From Candidatus Acetothermia bacterium JdFR-50 (GTDB lineage: Bacteria; Bipolaricaulota; Bipolaricaulia; Bipolaricaulales; Bipolaricaulaceae), in assembly GCA_002010365.1 (NCBI GenBank), contig MTNL01000174.1:1-10278 (forward strand): 10,278 bases of DNA, read 5' to 3'. A program made the translations under genes and the position numbers. Below the pieces are notes generated by a model. The model did not search any database. It was not told the DNA's origin and worked only from the letters and a program-made list of their open reading frames with translations. Shown one piece after another: positions 1-9,540 of this stretch; the stretch's first letter is position 1; each line of letters starts with the position of its first letter.

Positions 1-339
1 CCTTGAGCAACGTGAACCCGCCGGGCTGGTCCCGGATGAGGCCGCCGGTCGCGAGATCCAGGCGGTAGGTCTCGTAATCCCGGAGGACCCGAGCCGCCTC
101 CTCCCGGGAGAGGCCCCGCAGGACTCGATCGAAGCCCGGGGCGGCGGGGTGCGGTGGGCGGATGTGGTAACTCACGGTCATCCCCGATTCCCTCAGCCGC
201 TCGATCACCTCGGGCCGATGCTCGAGATACGCCCACACCTGGGGCCCGGTAAGATAGAAATCGCCCCGCACGCCATACTGCTCGAAGAGCTCGATCAAGC
301 GAAGGACGGTGTCAGCGCTTTCGTCCACGTTCACGAATC
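1..339 (-). pseudogene. C-terminal NodB-like domain of the two-domain deacetylase, out of frame and cut by the window edge
   Basis: On the minus strand a reading frame without stops runs from about 339 to the window edge. It starts with FVNVDESADTVLRLIE and continues through GVRGDFYLTGP, SGMTVSYHIRPPHP and LRDYETYRLD. It directly continues the motif GYITFAVNVHD that ends the neighbouring upstream frame (331-1392), but is shifted by one base. Adding one T to GATTC (336-337 on the plus strand) would join the two as NVHDFVNVDES. I recognise this pattern as a polysaccharide-deacetylase-like (NodB-fold) domain in which NVHD starts the first metal-binding strand. That match is from memory of the family, not a search. 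No start codon with a ribosome binding site lies at the junction, so independent translation is unlikely. The fragment continues beyond the left edge. Either this is a true frameshift or a consensus error. Confidence 0.7.
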
Positions 340-1392
340 GTGGACGTTGACGGCGAAGGTGATGTAGCCTCGGCACCCTTCCCGAGTGAGGGTGGCGCCC
401 CCCTCGGAGGTAATCGCAGCTCTGGGGTCGACACCGGGGTGCTCCCGCTCCCACGCCGCGAAGGCCTCGGCCATTTCGGAGAAGGTGGCCCAGCGGACCC
501 TCCCCGCGGCAGTCAGCGGGTCCACGGTTTCGGTCAGGAACCGGTCGATGGACTCCAAGGGAAACTCGCCCGGGTGCACCGTGATGTGGAAGACGTTCAC
601 CCGGTCCGGCCGTGCCGCCGCCAGGGATTCCCGCAGGTACCCCGCCAGGGCCTCGAACCACGCCCACACCCCTTTCTCCCGGATGAGGCGCCGCTTTTCG
701 CGAAAGGCCTTTGGATCGATCATCCCGTCGGGGAGGTAGATCACGGGGCCGTCGGGGTCGTGGGTGGCGAAGCGGGACATATCCGCGGGATCCGGCCCTC
801 CGGCGGGCCGCCAAGGATTAACTCCGATCACCTCCGCGGCGGCGGCCTGGACCCGGGGGTCCTTCCAATCGCCGTAGACCTCGAGGCTGGCACAGCGCGC
901 CGCTTCCAGGATCCCGGAGTAGAGGTTCCCCCCGCTCCAATACCGGATGGGACCTTCAACCCCTGCAGCGTGGATCAGGGAGATCTCCTCGCGCATGGCC
1001 CGGCACCACTCTTCGGGGGGCAACCGCTCGGGCTCGAGGCCGAGGTGGGCGTTCTCGTGAAAGTGGAGGCCGATCTCGTGTCCCCGAGTCTCAAGGTCCG
1101 CGAGGATCGTGTTCCCGGCCTCAGCGACCACCTGGGTGAAGGGCGACTGCACCTGAACCACCAGCACCCCGCCGTGGCGCTCTACCACCTCCGCGAGGTC
1201 GTAGAGGTACCGCACATGGCGCTCGAATAGGGCCGGATCCCAGTAATCGCTCCGGCCGCCCCGGTACCCCTGGGCCGTGATGCCCAGGGGCTCTACGTGC
1301 GCACCGATGGCGAGGAGCAAAACCGCCTGCCCTCCGAACGCTGCACTACCTATAATTGCCGAGATCACGAGGACGAAGAAAAACCTCCACAT
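331..1392 (-). CDS. Exported polysaccharide-deacetylase-like protein, N-terminal NodB-like domain (frameshifted at its end)
   Basis: As read, this frame encodes 353 residues. The ATG at 1392 is preferred over the upstream ATG at 1434 because it has a GGGAGG ribosome binding site about 7 bases upstream and starts directly with a signal peptide (MWRFFFVLVISAIIGSAAFG, residues 1-20, no lipobox Cys). The mature part has NodB-type features: an AHVEP motif (31-35), HEIGLHFHE (105-113), which resembles the His-rich metal-binding motif of carbohydrate esterase family 4, and a late FHITVHPGEF (268-277). These suggest a metal-dependent deacetylase or a fold relative acting on a cell-surface glycan; substrate and activity cannot be read from sequence. 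At residues 343-352 a second domain begins (YITFAVNVHD), but a stop follows one codon later because of a one-base deletion. The rest of that domain lies in another frame at 1-339. The gene follows pfkA on the same strand after a 31-90 base gap, depending on the start chosen. Confidence 0.75.
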   Translation of the reverse strand: MWRFFFVLVISAIIGSAAFGGQAVLLLAIGAHVEPLGITAQGYRGGRSDYWDPALFERHVRYLYDLAEVVERHGGVLVVQVQSPFTQVVAEAGNTILADLETRGHEIGLHFHENAHLGLEPERLPPEEWCRAMREEISLIHAAGVEGPIRYWSGGNLYSGILEAARCASLEVYGDWKDPRVQAAAAEVIGVNPWRPAGGPDPADMSRFATHDPDGPVIYLPDGMIDPKAFREKRRLIREKGVWAWFEALAGYLRESLAAARPDRVNVFHITVHPGEFPLESIDRFLTETVDPLTAAGRVRWATFSEMAEAFAAWEREHPGVDPRAAITSEGGATLTREGCRGYITFAVNVHDS

Positions 1393-1459
1393 AAGCGCTC
1401 CCTCCCGCCAGCAGCTTGGCAAATGAACGGACAAATATGAACTTAAAAGGGCTCAAAAA

Positions 1460-2592: not shown

Positions 2593-3684
2593 TCACTCGC
2601 TTCCCACCAGGAACCCCACCGCCGATGCCGCGTTCACCAACCCGAAACCCGTGCTTTCGTCCACGCCGGGAGTTCCCACATCGTCGGCGGTCAACCGGAG
2701 TATCTCCGCTACTCCTTCGGGGGAGAGGTCCTTGTCCAATGCCCACAGAAGGGCAGCAGTGCCAGCGACGTGGGGCGCGGCGAAGGAGGTGCCAGAGGAA
2801 CGTACCGGCACCCCGCCAGGCACCACGGAAACTACGTCCACCCCTGGAGCCGCGAGGTCCACCTGGGGCCCCCTATTTGTGAAAGGTGCCGGAGCCTTGG
2901 TTCTATCCACGGCCCCCACGGTAATCACGTCTGGGAGGCACCCAAGCGATCTGACCCGGGATCCGCCGTTACCGGCAATGGTTATGAGTAGGACACCCTG
3001 CCGCACGGCATCTTGAATCGCGCGGCACACGAAACCGGGAGGATCGACCTTTGCATAGATGGAAAGGTTTATGATCCTCGCTCCGTTCCGAACGGCGTAC
3101 TCGATCGCCTTCACCAGCTTGTCCCAATCGTTGCGGTAAAAGAACCCTCGGGAGTCGAGGAAACGCAGATCCATTATGCGAACCTTAGGAGCAACCCCAC
3201 CGACCCCGGTGGCCATGTCCACACTGGCGGCGACCAGCCCCGCCACGAAGGTCCCGTGGTAATTCAGCGGGGTCCCGCAGAGGGGGTCCGGGTCATCATC
3301 CCGGAAATCCCAGCCGTGGACGTCGTCGACATAGCCATTTCCGTCGTCATCGATTCCGTTCCCGGGGATCTCCCCGGGGTTCTGCCACATACGGCCACGC
3401 AGAAGCGGCACCGTATAATCGATGCCGCTGTCGATTATGGCTACCACCACTTCCTCGGATCCCTGGGTTATCTCCCAAGCTTGGGGTGCCCGAATCGCTT
3501 TTAAGCCCCAGCGCAAGCGGGAAGCTGCCTCTGTAATAGCGCTGGGGGGAGTGAAAGCACCGACGCCGCCTACTGGTTCGGGCCTCGGCAGCCAGAGGCG
3601 GTGAGGAGTGAGAACCAAACCAACGACTATGAACCCGACCGAAATCCCTATAGCAAAAAATGCCCACCAGTATCGTTTCAGCAT
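2593..3684 (-). CDS. Membrane-anchored subtilisin-like serine protease (S8 family), riboswitch-controlled
   Basis: The 363 residues form a subtilase with the full catalytic set: Asp85 in AIIDSGID, His143 in NYHGTFVAG, the oxyanion Asn239 in IAGNGG, and Ser300 in SSGTSFAAPHVAG. Residues 1-27 (MLKRYWWAFFAIGISVGFIV and on) are a basic start followed by one hydrophobic stretch with no clear cleavage site or Cys, so a signal anchor leaving the protease outside the membrane is likely. An Asp/Asn/Gly-rich insert (NPGEIPGNGIDDDGNGYVDD, 102-121) is typical of calcium-binding insertions between the Asp and His blocks of many extracellular subtilases. There is no obvious long inhibitory propeptide; only about 45 residues separate the membrane segment from the catalytic domain. 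The start codon lies inside the P1 helix of a c-di-GMP-I riboswitch and the only ribosome-binding-like bases (GAAGG) abut the ATG. The substrate is unknown; a surface or adhesin protein is an inference from the control element. Confidence 0.93.
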   Translation of the reverse strand: MLKRYWWAFFAIGISVGFIVVGLVLTPHRLWLPRPEPVGGVGAFTPPSAITEAASRLRWGLKAIRAPQAWEITQGSEEVVVAIIDSGIDYTVPLLRGRMWQNPGEIPGNGIDDDGNGYVDDVHGWDFRDDDPDPLCGTPLNYHGTFVAGLVAASVDMATGVGGVAPKVRIMDLRFLDSRGFFYRNDWDKLVKAIEYAVRNGARIINLSIYAKVDPPGFVCRAIQDAVRQGVLLITIAGNGGSRVRSLGCLPDVITVGAVDRTKAPAPFTNRGPQVDLAAPGVDVVSVVPGGVPVRSSGTSFAAPHVAGTAALLWALDKDLSPEGVAEILRLTADDVGTPGVDESTGFGLVNAASAVGFLVGSE

Positions 3685-3781
3685 CCTTCGGCAGCCCGGC
3701 CACCCTTCGACCTATGCGGTCGGGAGGGTCCGTCGGCTTTGCGCCCCCGGGTTTCCCCGGGTTTGCCTTTATCGGGATGCT
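3680..3781 (-). ncRNA. c-di-GMP-I (GEMM-I) riboswitch, P1 helix covers the protease start codon
   Basis: Read on the minus strand, the leader has the class I cyclic-di-GMP aptamer core in order. GGCAAACC is at 3767-3760. A 6-bp P2 stem CCCGGG/CCCGGG is closed by a GAAA tetraloop (3761-3746). GCAAAGCC is at 3742-3735. P3 (about 3732-3697) has a CGACC/GGTCG apical stem, and the 3' part GGCCGGGCTGCCGAAGG is at 3701-3685, very like GGUAGCGGGGUUACCGAUGG of Vibrio cholerae Vc2. P1 is a perfect 7-bp pairing, AGCATCC (3781-3775) with GGATGCT (3686-3680), and a 7-base linker leads to GGCAAACC as in Vc2. The first G of GGCAAACC matches Vc2 G20, which favours c-di-GMP over 3',3'-cGAMP. GGATGCT contains the ATG of the subtilase, so ligand-stabilised P1 should block translation (an OFF switch, inferred). 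Confidence 0.92.
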
Positions 3782-3885
3782 TTAGTGTTCAGAACCATGG
3801 GTCGTTTTCGGTGGCCTGGCTATGCCTCACCTCCTTCCCGAAGAAGATTAAAAACCCTGCTTGCTAGTTGTAACTACCACATGCA

Positions 3886-3914
3886 ATTATATTGAAAGGT
3901 CGCAGTTGAGGCAA
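3886..3914 (-). promoter_or_regulatory. Sigma70-type promoter for the riboswitch-protease transcript
   Basis: On the minus strand TTGCCT (3914-3909; 4 of 6 to TTGACA) and a perfect TATAAT (3891-3886) are separated by 17 bases. Transcription would start near 3879, about 100 bases before the riboswitch P1. It lies in the gap after the yjbQ stop codon, so the protease has its own promoter. Confidence 0.6.
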
Positions 3915-3946
3915 GTTTTTCAGATAAGCAAAATATCCGCGTGGGG

Positions 3947-4372
3947 TTAGTGGGGTTGCTCGCCGATGATCTTTATCAACACCCGCTTGGGCCGCTGCCC
4001 GTCGAACTCACCATAGAAAATCTGTTCCCACGGACCGAGATCTAATTTGCCCTCGGTAATCGCTACCACCGCCTCTCGCCCCATGAGCTGGCGCTTAAGA
4101 TGGGCATCGGCGTTGTCTTCCCCGGTGAGGTTGTGTTTGTAATGCCCCCGGATCGTGGGGAGCAAGACCCTCAAGCCATCTAAGGAAATCCTCATGGAGG
4201 CCCTCCTCATCATCGTTTATGAACACGGAGGCCGTGATGTGCATGGCGTTCACCAAACATAGTCCTTCCTTCACCCCGCTTTCCCTCACTGCCTCTTCCA
4301 CTTGGGGGTGATGTTTATAAGCTCTACACGGTTTTCGGTATTGAACCAAAGCTCCTTCCGATAGCCTTTCAT
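3947..4372 (-). pseudogene. yjbQ: YjbQ/UPF0047-family thiamine-phosphate synthase-like gene, two compensating frameshifts
   Basis: YjbQ proteins (UPF0047) are small trimeric enzymes annotated as secondary thiamine-phosphate synthases, usually about 138-140 residues. Here the family sequence is complete but spread over two frames. It starts at ATG 4372 (GGAG ribosome binding site) with [20 protein letters not shown], moves to another frame for [26 protein letters not shown] and [11 protein letters not shown], then returns to the first frame for [31 protein letters not shown] and [10 protein letters not shown]. Two indels explain this: one base missing in the G5 run at 4304-4308 (plus strand) and one extra base in the C5 run at 4145-4149. 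Corrected, the product is 141 residues, a normal length. As written, translation from 4372 stops after about 28 residues. All conserved residues survive, so errors in the consensus sequence are at least as likely as a dead gene. It diverges from ispG. Confidence 0.85.
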
Positions 4373-4405
4373 CCGGTCTCCTTTTCCATAACAAAAAATT
4401 TCTGC

Positions 4406-4433
4406 TTGCAAAGGATCACGTACCACTTAGGAT
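4406..4433 (+). promoter_or_regulatory. Possible ispG promoter, would give a near-leaderless mRNA
   Basis: TTGCAA (4406-4411) and TAGGAT (4428-4433), each 4 of 6 to the sigma70 consensus, are spaced 16 bases apart. A start 7 bases after TAGGAT would fall on or next to the GTG at 4441. The same AGGA could instead be the ribosome binding site, 8 bases from the GTG, so this call is weak. Confidence 0.25.
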
Positions 4434-4440
4434 AACCGTC

Positions 4441-5493
4441 GTGGGGCGTCGTATCAGTCGTGTGGTCTGGGTGGACTCCCTCCCGTTGGGAGGAGGATAT
4501 CCTGTGGTAGTCCAATCCATGACCAACACTCCTACGGCTGACATTCCCGCCACCGTGGCCCAGATCCGGACCTTGCAGGCCGTGGGCTGTGAGCTGGTCC
4601 GGGTAACGGTCCCAGACATGGATTCCGCCCGCGCCATCGCCGCCATAAAGGGTGAGGTCACCGTCCCCATCGTCGCGGACATCCACTATGATCCCAAGCT
4701 GGCCCTGGAAGCCCTGGAGGCCGGTGCTGACAAGCTCCGGCTCAACCCCGGCAACATGCGCGATCCCAAAGCCATCGAGGAGATCGCCCGCAGGGCCGCC
4801 GACCGGGGGGTCCCCATACGGGTGGGCGTCAACGCCGGCTCCCTGGACGAGAGATTCCTCCGAAAGGGCGAGGTAACCCCTGAGAGCATGGTAGAGGCTG
4901 CCTTGTGGGAAGTATCCCTTCTCGAGAAGGCAGGGTTCCGGGATGTGGTCATTTCCCTCAAGGCGGCGGACGTAGATCTCACCGTGGAGGCGAACCGCCT
5001 GCTCGTCCGGGAAGGGGACTGGCCCTTGCACCTGGGAATAACCGAGCCGGGGCCTGACCTGGAGGGAATCGTAAAGTCGGCGGTGGGGATCGGAATACTG
5101 GCGCACGAGGGGATCGGGGACACTATCCGGGTATCCCTTCCCGGAGAACCGGTACGCGAAGTGGAGGTGGCGTGGGAGATCCTCAAGTCCCTGGGGATCC
5201 GGAAACGGGGCCCAAGCTTCGTGGTCTGCCCCACTTGTGGACGAACGGGCGTGGATATCCCCGGCATAGCCGCCGAGGTCCGCCGACGCCTGTCCCACCT
5301 GACGGTCCCTCTCAAGATAGCTATCATGGGTTGTCCCGTGAATGGTCTCAAGGAGGTGAAACGGGCGGACTACGGCATTCTGGGGGGAAAAGGGTTTGGA
5401 ACGATCTACGCCCATGGCGAGGTTAAGAAACCCAAGGTTCCGGAGGATAGGCTGGTCGAAGAGCTCATAGCTCTCATTTCGATCCAATCCTAG
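4441..5493 (+). CDS. ispG: 4-hydroxy-3-methylbut-2-en-1-yl diphosphate synthase (IspG/GcpE)
   Basis: Converts 2-C-methyl-D-erythritol 2,4-cyclodiphosphate to HMBPP, the second-last step of the MEP isoprenoid pathway, using a 4Fe-4S cluster. The 350 residues are the short bacterial form without the plant insert. The N-terminal TIM-barrel part shows VVVQSMTNTPTAD (22-34), VRVTVPD (53-59), IVADIHYD (77-84), KLRLNPGN (98-105) and RVGVNAGSL (127-135). The C-terminal part carries the cluster ligands Cys263 and Cys266 (CPTC), Cys298 (MGCPVNG) and Glu305. Their spacing (3, 32, 7) is the same as E. coli Cys270, Cys273, Cys305 and Glu312. Start: GTG 4441, with MGRRISRVVWVDSLPLGGGY matching the usual IspG beginning; the ribosome binding site is weak (AGGA). 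It stands alone at the head of the plus-strand block and has its own gap before the regulator gene. Confidence 0.97.
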   Translation: MGRRISRVVWVDSLPLGGGYPVVVQSMTNTPTADIPATVAQIRTLQAVGCELVRVTVPDMDSARAIAAIKGEVTVPIVADIHYDPKLALEALEAGADKLRLNPGNMRDPKAIEEIARRAADRGVPIRVGVNAGSLDERFLRKGEVTPESMVEAALWEVSLLEKAGFRDVVISLKAADVDLTVEANRLLVREGDWPLHLGITEPGPDLEGIVKSAVGIGILAHEGIGDTIRVSLPGEPVREVEVAWEILKSLGIRKRGPSFVVCPTCGRTGVDIPGIAAEVRRRLSHLTVPLKIAIMGCPVNGLKEVKRADYGILGGKGFGTIYAHGEVKKPKVPEDRLVEELIALISIQS

Positions 5494-6428: not shown

Positions 6429-7739
6429 ATGAAGCGTTTTGTCCTGTTCGCGTTGATCGCGCTCTTTGCATTCGGAATGGCCTTGGGCCAGGACAAGATC
6501 AAGATCACCTTCTGGCACGCCATGGGCGGCTGGCGCGTGCCGTTCATCGAGCGGATGGTCCAGGACTTCAACCTCACCCATCCTTGGATCGAGGTCACCG
6601 TGGAGTACAAGGGATCGTACCGCGACACCCTCAACGCGGCCCTGGCGGCGGCCCGGGCCGGCAACCCGCCCCACATCGTCCACTCCTTCGAGGTGGGGAC
6701 CCAGATGAACCTGGATTCCGGCATCTTCGTCTCCCTGGAGGAGCTCATCGACAAGTACGGTCTCATCGTCCCGTGGGAGGACTACATCGACGCCGCCCTG
6801 AACTATTACCGCGTGGGCGGGAAGCTCTTCTGCATGCCGTGGAACTCCTCTAACCCCATCCTCTACTACAACAAGACGATGCTCGATGCCGTGGGCGTGG
6901 AGATGCCGCGCAAGCCCACTTTCGAGGATATCTACGAGATCAGCAAGAAGCTGGTGGAAGCTAAGGTGGCGGAATACGGGATCACCTGGCCCCTCCACTC
7001 TTGGTTCTTCGAGCAGTGGATGGCTAATATGGGCGTAGACTTGGTCAACAACCAGAACGGCCGCGCCGACTACGCCACCGAGATCAACCTCCTGGATCCC
7101 GCGGCCATCGAGATCATGTCCTGGTGGAAGAAGCTCTACGACGAGGGCCTCTGGGTGAACCCCGGCCGCGAGAACTGGTCCCAGGCACGCCAGATCTTCA
7201 TCTCCGGTCAGTCCGCCATGCTCATCTCCTCCACTTCTGATGTCACCCGGATGGAGAACGCCGCCGTGGAACAGGGCTTCGAGCTCGGCACTGCGTTCCT
7301 GCCCATCTCCTCCAAGTACGAGCGCCACGGCGTGGTGATCGGCGGTGGCGCTCTGTGGGTAACCGGCAACCACCCCGATGAGGAGCTGGAGGCCGCGGCC
7401 ACGTTTGTGGTGTGGATGACCCAAGTGGCCCAGACCATCCGCTGGCATCAGGGCACCGGCTACTTCCCCATCCGGGACTCCGCCGTGGAGATCCTGGAGA
7501 AGGAGGGATGGTTCGTGACCCATCCCAACCACCGCACCGCCCTGGACCAGCTCCGTGAGACCAAGCTCGTCACCGCCACCCAAGGGGCGCTGATGGGCAA
7601 CTTCCTTGAGGCTCGCACCTTCATCGAGGACGCCATCGAGGCCATCCTGGCCGGGACTCCCATCGAGACTGCCCTGTCCGAGGCCAAGGCCAAGATCGAC
7701 CAGGGCCTCAAGGATTACCTGGAGCTGGTCGGTGGCTGA
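6429..7739 (+). CDS. ugpB: UgpB-like extracellular solute-binding protein (glycerol-3-phosphate/glycerophosphodiester type)
   Basis: The 436 residues are a family 1 solute-binding protein of a CUT1 ABC importer. The signal peptide MKRFVLFALIALFAFGMALG (1-20) has no Cys, so the protein would be secreted or periplasmic rather than a lipoprotein. The match to E. coli UgpB goes beyond the family level: FWHAMGG (28-34), YKGSY (60-64), ARAGNPPHIVHSFEVGT (75-91), PWNSSNPILYYNK (137-149), IGGGALWV (304-311), WHQGTGYFP (339-347) and MGNFLEAR (389-396). Arg396 would sit at the substrate-binding Arg374 of E. coli UgpB; this alignment is by eye. These retained pocket segments favour glycerol 3-phosphate or a glycerophosphodiester as ligand, and the phosphodiesterase gene downstream agrees. 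Start: ATG 6429 behind a strong AAGGAGGTG. A terminator-like hairpin follows the gene, which fits the excess of binding protein over permease usual in such operons. Confidence 0.9.
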   Translation: MKRFVLFALIALFAFGMALGQDKIKITFWHAMGGWRVPFIERMVQDFNLTHPWIEVTVEYKGSYRDTLNAALAAARAGNPPHIVHSFEVGTQMNLDSGIFVSLEELIDKYGLIVPWEDYIDAALNYYRVGGKLFCMPWNSSNPILYYNKTMLDAVGVEMPRKPTFEDIYEISKKLVEAKVAEYGITWPLHSWFFEQWMANMGVDLVNNQNGRADYATEINLLDPAAIEIMSWWKKLYDEGLWVNPGRENWSQARQIFISGQSAMLISSTSDVTRMENAAVEQGFELGTAFLPISSKYERHGVVIGGGALWVTGNHPDEELEAAATFVVWMTQVAQTIRWHQGTGYFPIRDSAVEILEKEGWFVTHPNHRTALDQLRETKLVTATQGALMGNFLEARTFIEDAIEAILAGTPIETALSEAKAKIDQGLKDYLELVGG

Positions 7740-7754
7740 TAGGGAGAAAAGGAG

Positions 7755-7787
7755 GGGGAGCCCGTATGGGCTCCCCTTTTCTTCTTT
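7755..7787 (+). terminator. Intrinsic terminator between ugpB and ugpA
   Basis: GGGGAGCCC (7755-7763), loop GTAT and GGGCTCCCC (7768-7776) form a perfect 9-bp GC-rich stem followed by TTTTCTTCTTT. It lies 15 bases after the ugpB stop and before the permease genes, which have no promoter I can see. Partial read-through, or protection of the ugpB mRNA 3' end, would give more binding protein than permease. Confidence 0.85.
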
Positions 7788-7808
7788 GGCTTAGATAACG
7801 GGGGGGTC

Positions 7809-8693
7809 ATGCAGAGCAAATTCCCGAATAGGTGGCTGCCCCTGATCCTCCTTCTGCCCACCATCGCCGTTTGTGCGGTCTTCCTCTATTACCCGGTGGC
7901 CCAGAGCTTCGAGTGGAGCCTGTATCGGGCGGCCTTCATGGGGCTAAAGCGGATCTACGTCGGGTTCCAGAACTATGTCCGCCTCTTCACCTCTTCCGAC
8001 TACCACAAGAGCCTTGTCGTGAGTCTCATCTTCGCCGCGGGGGTGGTGGTGATCGGACTCTCGATTTCGCTGGCCATCGCCCTTTTGGCGAACCGCAAGA
8101 TCCGAGGGGCGCGGATCTACCGCCTGCTGCTGATCTGGCCATACGCCCTCTCCCCAGCGGTGGCGGGGACCATCTGGCTGTTTCTTTTCAACCCAACCTC
8201 GGGGGTGCTCACTTACTTCACCGATCGCTTCTTCGGGTTCCGGCTGGATTGGCTCACCAACGCCAACCTCGCCCTCCTTGGGGTGATCGTGGCCGCGGTG
8301 TGGAAGAACTTGGGCTACAACATCGTGTTCTTCCTCGCGGGGCTCCAGAACGTCCCCGGGGAGATCCTGGAAGCGGCCCGCATCGACGGCGCCGGGCCGT
8401 GGAAGTGCTTCTGGAAGGTGACCTTTCCCCTGCTCTCCCCTACCACCTTCTTCCTATTCATCATGAACTTGATCTACGCCTTCTTCGGGGCGTTTGGGCT
8501 CATCGACGTGATGACCAAAGGGGGACCGGTGAACGCCACCAACATCCTCATCTACAACCTGTACCGGGACGCCTTTCAGCACAACAAATGGGGCATGGCC
8601 TCGGCGCAGTCGGTGATCCTCTTCGTGCTCGTCGTGGTCCTCACCCTGATCCAGTTCCGGACCACCGGAAGGAGGGTGCACTATGGCGCCTAA
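7809..8693 (+). CDS. ugpA: UgpA-like ABC transporter permease
   Basis: One of two membrane subunits of a CUT1 sugar/glycerophosphate importer. The 294 residues carry about six hydrophobic segments; the first is WLPLILLLPTIAVCAVFLYY (9-28). The cytoplasmic EAA loop, EAARIDGAGPWKCFWKVTFP (188-207), docks the ATPase. The region VMTKGGPVNATNILIYNLYR (234-253) is very close to the E. coli UgpA sequence at the same place. Start: ATG 7809, with only GGGGGG near it as ribosome binding site; the N terminus fits the family. The end overlaps ugpE by 11 bases, pointing to coupled translation. It lies after the hairpin that follows ugpB. Confidence 0.92.
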   Translation: MQSKFPNRWLPLILLLPTIAVCAVFLYYPVAQSFEWSLYRAAFMGLKRIYVGFQNYVRLFTSSDYHKSLVVSLIFAAGVVVIGLSISLAIALLANRKIRGARIYRLLLIWPYALSPAVAGTIWLFLFNPTSGVLTYFTDRFFGFRLDWLTNANLALLGVIVAAVWKNLGYNIVFFLAGLQNVPGEILEAARIDGAGPWKCFWKVTFPLLSPTTFFLFIMNLIYAFFGAFGLIDVMTKGGPVNATNILIYNLYRDAFQHNKWGMASAQSVILFVLVVVLTLIQFRTTGRRVHYGA

Positions 8694-9540
8694 GGGACGC
8701 TCCGTTTATTGGTACAGGAAACGGGCGGCGATTGTGCTCACCCACGCCGCCTTAATCATCGCCGCCTTGCTCATCTCCTCCCCAGTGCTCTTTGCCATCA
8801 TAAAGAGCACCCAAACCACCGCCCAGGTCTTCTCCTACCCCCCCAAGTTCGTGATCGGCACCGCCGCCCCGGAGAACTACAGCATCGCCTGGCATAATTA
8901 CAACCTGGGTCGGCTGATGCTGAACACCTTCATTGTGGCCGGGGCGGTGATGTTGGGCAAAACCTTGCTTTCCCTCTTCGCGGCCCTAGCGCTTGTTTAC
9001 TTCGACTTCCGTTTCAAAGCGCTGATATTCGTATTCATCCTGGTGACCTTGATGATGCCGGTCCCAGTGCGGATCGTGCCCCTGTTCGACCTAATGCGAA
9101 AACTCCATTGGGGCGACACCTTCTGGGCGCTGACCATCCCATTCTTGGCCTCGGCCACGGGCACGTTCCTCTTTCGGCAACACTTCATGTCCTTCCCCAC
9201 TTCCTTGGTAGACGCCGCCAGGGTGGACGGCGTGGGACCCCTCCGATTCCTGTGGCAGATCCTCATTCCCATGTCCATGAACACCATCGGAGCCCTGGCG
9301 GTAATTGAGTTCGTCTACATCTGGAACCAATACCTCTGGCCCCTGATCATCATCTCCTCCAACCGCAGCCAGATGATTCAGATCGGCCTCAAGATGCTCA
9401 CCGGGGCCGGACCCCAGGGGATGGTGAACTGGGGCGTGGCCATGGCCGGAACGGTGATCACCATGCTTCCACCCCTGATCGTTTTCATGCTCCTGCAGGA
9501 GCAGTTCATGCGCGGCTTCGCCCTCGCCGAGGAGAAATGA
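8683..9540 (+). CDS. ugpE: UgpE-like ABC transporter permease
   Basis: Second membrane subunit of the importer, 285 residues with about six membrane segments. The first is at 16-40 (AAIVLTHAALIIAALLISSP within it). The EAA loop reads VDAARVDGVGPLRFLWQILI (176-195), with Asp instead of the first Glu, which is common in this subunit. FVYIWNQYLWPLI (210-222) is the usual motif after it. Start: ATG 8683 behind GGAGG; it begins inside ugpA. Its stop overlaps the next start as ATGA (9537-9540). No gene for the matching ATPase (UgpC/MalK type) lies within the window; it may follow beyond the right edge or be a shared one elsewhere. Confidence 0.92.
   Translation: MAPKGRSVYWYRKRAAIVLTHAALIIAALLISSPVLFAIIKSTQTTAQVFSYPPKFVIGTAAPENYSIAWHNYNLGRLMLNTFIVAGAVMLGKTLLSLFAALALVYFDFRFKALIFVFILVTLMMPVPVRIVPLFDLMRKLHWGDTFWALTIPFLASATGTFLFRQHFMSFPTSLVDAARVDGVGPLRFLWQILIPMSMNTIGALAVIEFVYIWNQYLWPLIIISSNRSQMIQIGLKMLTGAGPQGMVNWGVAMAGTVITMLPPLIVFMLLQEQFMRGFALAEEK

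Follow-up and report, generated by a model that had tools for sequence, protein, structure and literature searches.

How is a gene translated when its start codon lies at one end of a riboswitch aptamer and its only good Shine-Dalgarno (SD) sequence seems to lie beyond the other end? The question is raised by a stretch of 10,278 bases from Candidatus Acetothermia bacterium JdFR-50, a Bipolaricaulota metagenome-assembled genome (the window, i.e., the whole stretch of DNA analyzed; contig 17 of a 1.29-Mb assembly that is 62.8% complete), in which a class I riboswitch for cyclic di-GMP (c-di-GMP-I) was found on the minus strand directly in front of a gene for a subtilisin-type (S8) serine protease. 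Sequence and comparison with relatives place here an aptamer, a closing helix P1 over the AUG, an SD block of conserved position on the 5′ side of the aptamer, and complementarity between a strand beside that block and the aptamer. With somewhat more belief than doubt, we read this as a riboswitch that turns OFF translation of the protease through strand exchange at a split ribosome-binding site.

At high c-di-GMP the aptamer would fold and P1 would bury the AUG, leaving the sole good SD stranded across the aptamer, about 145 nucleotides (nt) off in linear distance and possibly partly masked by a hairpin (H1). At low c-di-GMP the strand just 3′ of the SD would pair with the 3′ strand of the aptamer, breaking the aptamer and freeing the AUG, so that SD and AUG would flank the base of one helix and, with some 12 single-stranded nt between them, form a composite ribosome-binding site. 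The layout was compared over 151 riboswitch places, namely the best 150 matches listed and the fifth copy of the window's own genome, weaker matches being left out; gene starts in this set were assigned by a script that took the longest frame.

Identity of the Aptamer and the Protease

3686–3776, minus strand: c-di-GMP-I aptamer (RF01051/RF03167), found by cmscan
3745–3761, minus strand: P2 with GAAA tetraloop cap, from alignment and fold
3740, minus strand: A equivalent to A47 of the Vc2 riboswitch, from the model alignment; the RF03167 consensus has G there
2593–3684, minus strand: S8 (subtilisin-type) serine protease of 363 amino acids (aa) with an N-terminal hydrophobic segment; PF00082, 159.7 bits

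A sequence-only reading of this DNA had proposed a complete c-di-GMP-I core and named RF01051 as the family to check, and both points were borne out. The core consists of GGCAAACC, a P2 capped by GAAA, CAAAGCC, P3 and the 3′ part GCUGCCGAAG, and has the P1-P2-P3 arrangement with a GNRA-capped P2. RF01051 scored 68.9 bits (cut-off 35) on the minus strand at 3777–3687, covering model positions 1–87 of 87. The best Rfam family by E-value was RF03167 (c-di-GMP-I-GGC) rather than RF01051 (67.1 bits, cut-off 59, E-value 1.7e-14, minus strand 3776–3686; cmscan), and it was the single family above cut-off in the whole window. Strict membership in this GGC variant was ruled out: the RF03167 consensus around the position equivalent to A47 reads GACGCGAAgCc, and its G is replaced by A in the window. 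The Vc2 numbering of this base is our assumption, as is the reading of GGC in the family name as referring to a G at this base. The equivalent base was A in 146 of the 147 parsed aptamers and C in one (4 of the 151 were unparsed). GGCAAACC, GCAAAGCC and GCUGCC were all found in the window aptamer, onto which we presume that the ligand-contact bases G20 and C92 (Vc2 numbering) can be mapped. Judged by its sequence, the window RNA is a c-di-GMP-I aptamer, presumably with the classical contact bases, and its ligand would be c-di-GMP.

The aptamer match is not due to chance, since none was found in 14 control genomes and the layout is kept in relatives. RF03167 matches were present in 57 of 60 relatives. 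The window's genome contains five copies of the riboswitch, two of which precede S8 protease paralogs in identical layout. One copy sits at a contig end. The copy L008 (1271–1346, minus strand) has GGGGGTG as a possible P1 3′ strand, so that the SD rather than the AUG would be in P1, and precedes a gene for a 165-aa protein without Pfam match; the P1 3′ strand of the copy L009 is by eye complementary to the downstream SD, and this copy is therefore ON-like. One GGDEF domain was detected in the genome, with conserved Asn and Asp, which we take to mark enzymes that make c-di-GMP, and GGDEF was found in 59 of the 60 relatives.

The subtilisin-type part of the earlier description of the gene product stood, and the label "surface" goes back to the N-terminal hydrophobic segment, by which the protease is probably exported; it may release surface proteins. 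Peptidase_S8 (PF00082) matched with the bit score given above, and the protein resembles subtilisins and thermitase of known structure. D85, H143, and S300, presumably the catalytic triad Asp/His/Ser, were invariant in 16 aligned homologs. Thirteen of the 14 best named relatives came from contigs of Candidatus Bipolaricaulota/Acetothermia and one was labeled Caldisericota; below these, the names scatter. Among the best 47 protease matches, 19 had a listed aptamer just upstream.

The Start Codon Within the Closing Helix

3775–3781, minus strand: P1 5′ strand AGCAUCC, from sequence, fold and comparison
3680–3686, minus strand: P1 3′ strand GGAUGCU, holding the start codon, from sequence and comparison
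3682–3684, minus strand: ATG start codon of the protease, from the reading frame and a start position common to homologs

P1 had been described as a perfect helix of 7 base pairs (bp) whose 3′ strand contains the protease ATG, and this was confirmed: AGCAUCC (3781–3775) pairs with GGAUGCU (3686–3680), the ATG (3684–3682) lies inside, and the minimum free energy fold of the window leader includes P1. There is no earlier in-frame start, because the protease frame is stopped upstream by a TAG directly ahead of a GTC. The comparison of the overlap in related genomes, also proposed earlier, showed that of 19 S8 proteases led by a riboswitch 18 have their start codon at −2 to +1 nt relative to the end of the aptamer; in the exception, G036, the frame does not suit the first ATG.

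Counted in register, P1 of the protease leaders had on average 6.6 of 8 pairs, compared to 3.4 with swapped partners and 1.7–2.5 after sliding. Over nine leaders from the window's genus P1 was paired in 100% of cells, with scant variation (100 of 500 shuffles were as good). In 18 non-protease leaders the P1 register was off by one: own partners gave 3.7 and swapped ones 3.9, and a shift of +1 gave 5.6. The in-register pair count was adopted in place of whole-helix energies from RNAduplex, which proved uninformative as a P1 test as the set is GC-rich: 12% of mismatched partners equaled or beat the window's own pairing, and just 27% of 150 leaders had their own pairing ranked in the top 5%.

When P1 was forced, the AUG was unpaired at 0.00 in all nine genus leaders, which supports the OFF logic that had been predicted for the gene; such logic for the protease is likely. 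Among the 18 protease leaders computed, the value was 0.00 in 10 (the nine of the genus and G048) and 0.36–0.48 in the remaining eight, where the A of the start codon lies in a bulge.

A Shine-Dalgarno Sequence and an Anti-Aptamer Strand Upstream of the Aptamer

3886–3914, minus strand: predicted promoter, TTGCCT (3914–3909), 17 nt, TATAAT (3891–3886), 10/12 consensus matches
3827–3836, minus strand: SD AAGGAGGTGA, 5′ of the aptamer and some 145 nt ahead of the ATG; matches the complement of the 16S 3′ end of relatives over 10 nt
3810–3823, minus strand: anti-aptamer strand AUAGCCAGGCCACC, 12 of 14 pairs with 3704–3691; 6 of 300 shuffles equal it
3691–3704, minus strand: aptamer 3′ strand GGUGGCCGGGCUGC (in P3 and the junction), complementary to the anti-aptamer strand, whose target it would be
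3810–3831, minus strand: possible hairpin H1 (GGU..ACC, GGC..GCC) over part of the SD, from the RNAalifold consensus

The earlier reading had seen in the closing helix the simplest possible platform, with no separate anti-SD. In the window's genus this part was not supported, as the aptamer is preceded by an SD block and an anti-aptamer strand. All nine genus leaders carry, about 60 nt 5′ of the aptamer, AAAGGAGGUGAGGCRUAGCCRGGCCACC or a variant of this block. The 3′ end of the relatives' 16S is GGCTGGATCACCTCCTTT (matched in 20 of 30 genomes; not found in the window's own incomplete assembly), and eight of the leaders match it with an SD of 8–11 nt, the remaining one with 6 nt. A 20-nt pattern of the block had 10 matches in six genus genomes, nine of which are these leaders and the tenth a place without a listed riboswitch. 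Further upstream, the TATAAT was invariant in all nine leaders; the promoter prediction itself gave one site versus 0.5 expected in shuffles. SD (3836–3827) and AUG (3684) are thus parted by the aptamer.

A leader peptide read from the upstream SD was rejected for the genus. No start codon is conserved after this SD, seven of the nine leaders have none of their own, and a GTG at usable distance occurs in two of nine (G005_C46 and C7; all by eye). The window has an ATG 28 nt past the SD (minus strand 3798–3796), and none was seen in the other genus leaders. The upstream element had no match in Rfam at E-values up to 10. A looser pattern for it (two mismatches, 40 family genomes) was dropped, its matches being scattered and reversed-pattern controls matching too.

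The anti-aptamer strand directly follows the SD and pairs with the aptamer 3′ strand GGUGGCCGGGCUGC at 11–13 of 14 positions in the nine leaders. In six of these, 0–6 of 300 shuffles were as good, and in G003_C47 16 were. The best anti-aptamer strand score was 25–32 in seven of nine (C7, 15; G004_C15, 19), compared to a maximum of 24 among the genus's remaining 18 riboswitch leaders and eight proteases from outside it. Across the nine leaders the helix was paired in 88.9% of cells, versus 8–50% in slid controls, and 2 of its 14 pairs were changed on both sides. With moderate confidence, a split ribosome-binding site is to replace the simplest platform in the window's genus; the simple form with P1 alone may occur elsewhere, in the proteases of the groups g5 and g6 and in G048.

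Such a P1-only gate, in which ligand-bound P1 hides the AUG, initiation does not depend on an SD and the upstream SD is irrelevant or otherwise used, could also be proposed for the window itself. The overlap of P1 and AUG is the most widely conserved feature and is kept in the g5/g6 proteases and G048, which fail the combined SD and anti-aptamer test described below; moreover, the window's anti-aptamer helix is among the weaker ones and its folds favor P1. However, it is the SD block that is conserved in the upstream leaders of the genus; this block mostly lacks a start of its own and recurs beside an anti-aptamer strand in an unrelated family. We therefore regard the P1-only gate as rather unlikely here.

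RNAalifold on the genus alignment predicted P1, the aptamer and H1, and did not predict the long anti-aptamer helix, with which H1 possibly competes according to these models. Three of the seven H1 pairs carried double changes, and each of these three also had a single broken cell. This bears on another explanation, that the upstream SD serves as a ribosome standby site from which the 30S subunit reaches the AUG by sliding or hopping after P1 has opened, with no long helix. H1 has double changes at more pairs (3/7) than the long helix (2/14), and in the part of PMC3936740 that bears on this, sites more than 100 nt from the start are described as able to support translation in synthetic 5′ untranslated regions. 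A standby site would, however, not need to be complementary to the aptamer, nor would it call for the near-constant junction distances found in two families, and we hold this explanation to be improbable.

A Second, Unrelated Family With the Same Order of Elements

The start also lies at the aptamer end in a second, unrelated family of secreted proteins of about 150 aa, from which 17 leaders were taken, and the order here is SD-like block, GGCAGC or GGCAAC, aptamer and AUG. The base of the element tracks that of the aptamer, since the 16 leaders parsed by script comprised seven with CAG and C, seven with CAA and U, two with the wobble CAG and U, and no mismatch. One of the seven, G015, is really a P1 arm in a leader without the element, and G027, unparsed by script, shows GGCAGCC by eye; the U cases come mostly from one genus and thus represent few independent events.

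A strict test was defined as an SD core with at most two mismatches, followed within 16 nt by six consecutive pairs. It was passed by 21 of the 36 leaders of the two families (6/19 proteases and 15/17 of the ~150-aa family) and by none of the remaining 115, 20 of which have an upstream SD core (Fisher p 2e-16, not corrected for kinship). The 115 include four leaders whose start may be at offset 0 (G000_C198, G020_C57, G055_C15, and G059_C175). When the 36 leaders were shuffled by dinucleotides, a mean of 0.66 and a maximum of two passed. None of the ten proteases outside the genus, including those of g5/g6 and G048, passed. In the 21 passing leaders the distance from SD to helix was 6–9 nt and that from helix to aptamer end 4–5 nt, near-constant distances by which, in both families, SD and AUG would come to lie on either side of the helix.

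The ~150-aa and ~171-aa protein families are homologous (hhalign probability 99.4 between their alignments), and in pairs of such genes the first leader has its start in P1 (OFF-like) and the second is ON-like where computed (six). We consider the chances evenly balanced that the following wider picture holds: an aptamer wedged between SD and AUG, a 5′ anti-aptamer strand as expression platform, a ligand that dismantles the split site, occurrence in at least two unrelated Bipolaricaulota families, and c-di-GMP that would swap one surface protein for its paralog.

As to gene order, 15 of the 17 ~150-aa genes were followed by a homologous ~171-aa gene with its own riboswitch (L147, L103, L134, L121, L142, L104, L128, L117, L125, L135, L143, L144, L145, L148, and L149).

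Folding Energies and Evidence Against Strand Exchange

Folding energies back strand exchange in part, as far as such models go. With a 60-nt tail, the anti-aptamer helix dominated the free ensemble in G004_C10, G002, and G003_C20 (probability 0.80–0.96), and in the window it reached 0.55 with the shorter tail, compared to 0.13 for P1. The helix competes better in G002:C61 and in the leader of the ~150-aa gene of G027 than it does in the window.

A number of results weigh against strand exchange at a split site. In the nine genus leaders the anti-aptamer state was ahead of the P1 state in three (30-nt tail) or four (60-nt tail), with gaps between the states of up to 10.6 kcal/mol. In the window the P1 state was ahead, by 0.7 (−84.0 vs. 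−83.3) and 5.0 kcal/mol (−92.7 vs. −87.7). In its anti-aptamer state, the SD was only 0.05 unpaired (30-nt tail) and the AUG 0.00 (30 nt) or 0.34 (60 nt) unpaired, and when the P1 5′ arm was blocked, two of three fragments still had the AUG paired to GCAUUUUUU downstream. The window is thus a weaker example than three of its relatives, because its folds favor P1 and its AUG can pair with GCAUUUUUU. It also fails the strict six-pair test, its first pair being A-C, as do C7 and G004_C15, whose complementarity is no better than that of shuffles (144/300 and 85/300 as good, respectively). Covariation of the anti-aptamer helix was reached by 40–148 of 500 shuffles (column shuffles, 40/500), and most of its changes fall between two subclades.

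Under forced P1 the SD was left open in six of nine leaders (0.47–0.90 unpaired), and masking of the SD by H1 is therefore weakly supported. This unmasking, together with the anti-aptamer state being ahead in a minority of folds, reduced our confidence in the split site. In the ~150-aa family, the anti-aptamer state was ahead in only 6 of 16 leaders, the AUG was not clearly freer in that state in 3 of 16, and forcing the chosen P1 left the AUG 0.49–0.61 unpaired in 5 of 14. The distance of about 12 nt across the helix exceeds the usual SD spacing. Finally, a listed aptamer is missing upstream in 28 of the 47 best protease matches; when 15 of these 28 loci were scanned with cmscan, three had aptamers, and only downstream of the protease.

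From the sequences we infer both the direction of the switch and the use of the distant SD by the ribosome.

ON-Type Leaders in the Same Genomes

Eight ON-like leaders were folded, and forced P1 raised the accessibility of the region from −14 to −4 in seven of them. All six of the ~171-aa family were raised (from 0.10–0.11 to 0.26–0.37, or from 0.03–0.04 to 0.18), as was G012_C138 (0.12 to 0.36); the genome's own copy C40 was not (0.12 to 0.10). An SD beside the start was kept in the eight ON-type leaders examined, with a match of 4–7 nt. Forcing a P1 of only 2–5 bp took the accessibility of the start codon from 0.00–0.01 to 0.35–0.69 in five leaders of genes for large secreted proteins. The PPEP-1-like arrangement predicted earlier received support, as several relatives have the protease followed by ON-looking riboswitch-led genes.

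The same genomes contain ON-type leaders whose sequences resemble terminators or anti-SDs (by eye and from folds), which might suggest that the window's aptamer, too, acts on transcription or in the ON direction. No terminator-like site was found on the minus strand at 3500–4450, and forced P1 buries the window AUG; we judge this explanation very improbable.

In the g5 and g6 loci (L136, L124, L102, L151, L150, L146, L105, L127, and L140), an OFF-like protease was followed by a riboswitch-led small RHH_1-type protein and/or a large secreted protein. The large protein downstream of the protease in G009, the one tested, contains DUF7507/DUF11 repeats. By eye, the g5/g6 leaders of RHH_1-type genes have a terminator-like sequence directly 3′ of the aptamer. 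Ahead of other secreted-protein genes, an element like CCTAATGGTGGCCGAGCCGCTAGATGC was seen just 3′ of the aptamer (G018_C238, G013_C68, G007_C153, G021_C1, G048_C30, G042_C9, G054_C67, and G055_C49).

Neighboring Genes

Downstream of the second riboswitch-led protease, L007 encodes (7126–8703, plus strand) an HD_5-domain protein with a hydrophobic N-terminus and HD-GYP-like motifs, by its sequence possibly a c-di-GMP phosphodiesterase. In the window, a UPF0047 (YjbQ-like) gene at 3947–4394 (minus strand) is seemingly split over two frames, one of which matches profile positions 49–117 only; it seems to be a broken gene or an assembly error. The minus-strand frames 2–814 and 331–1434 (window 2–1434) overlap, the longer one without Pfam match, and may represent one gene interrupted by a frameshift.

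Relation to Known Systems and Implications

The c-di-GMP-I riboswitch Vc2 of Vibrio cholerae is reportedly a translational OFF switch, as Inuzuka is said to have described in 2018. Going by what PMC9262584 cites of it, Vc2 and the window share the c-di-GMP-I aptamer, translational OFF control and a decisive role of P1 stability, and they differ in that the window has its AUG inside P1 and its SD 5′ of the aptamer.

In Clostridioides difficile a c-di-GMP aptamer of class II joined to a group I ribozyme lets c-di-GMP decide, by splicing, whether an SD comes next to the start, with an ON outcome. Adjacency of SD and start would be set by c-di-GMP in the window too, there by refolding and with an OFF outcome, the ribozyme side of this comparison being general background. 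The same species has, in the portion of PMC11477304 concerned with these switches, an OFF class I switch on PPEP-1 (Zmp1) and ON class II switches on its adhesin substrates. Protease OFF, surface proteins ON, and thus inverse switches on protease and substrate genes, would be common to both systems. The class I switch of C. difficile is described there as acting on transcription, and PPEP-1 as a metalloprotease with known substrates, whereas the window would act on translation, has an S8 protease and belongs to a group in which both signs apparently come from c-di-GMP-I. Escherichia coli thrS likewise has a ribosome-binding site split by a folded RNA domain; in the relevant part of PMC3936740 thrS is not described with a ligand-binding aptamer, and the wedge in the window is a riboswitch.

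Exact-word searches of an open-access library brought up no description of an aptamer placed between an SD and a start codon, nor any of such a regulon. Expression platforms of riboswitches are usually sought 3′ of the aptamer, and a 5′ platform would escape such searches. If our reading is true, the gene should fall silent upon mutation of an SD that is some 145 nt away from its start codon, and a 5′ platform that assembles and dismantles a split ribosome-binding site would be an added mechanism for translational riboswitches. These comparisons also bring to light, in a phylum that has been little studied, what would be a regulon of proteases and secreted proteins under c-di-GMP; its inverse logic of protease and surface protein is like that of C. 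difficile, here apparently drawn from one aptamer class.

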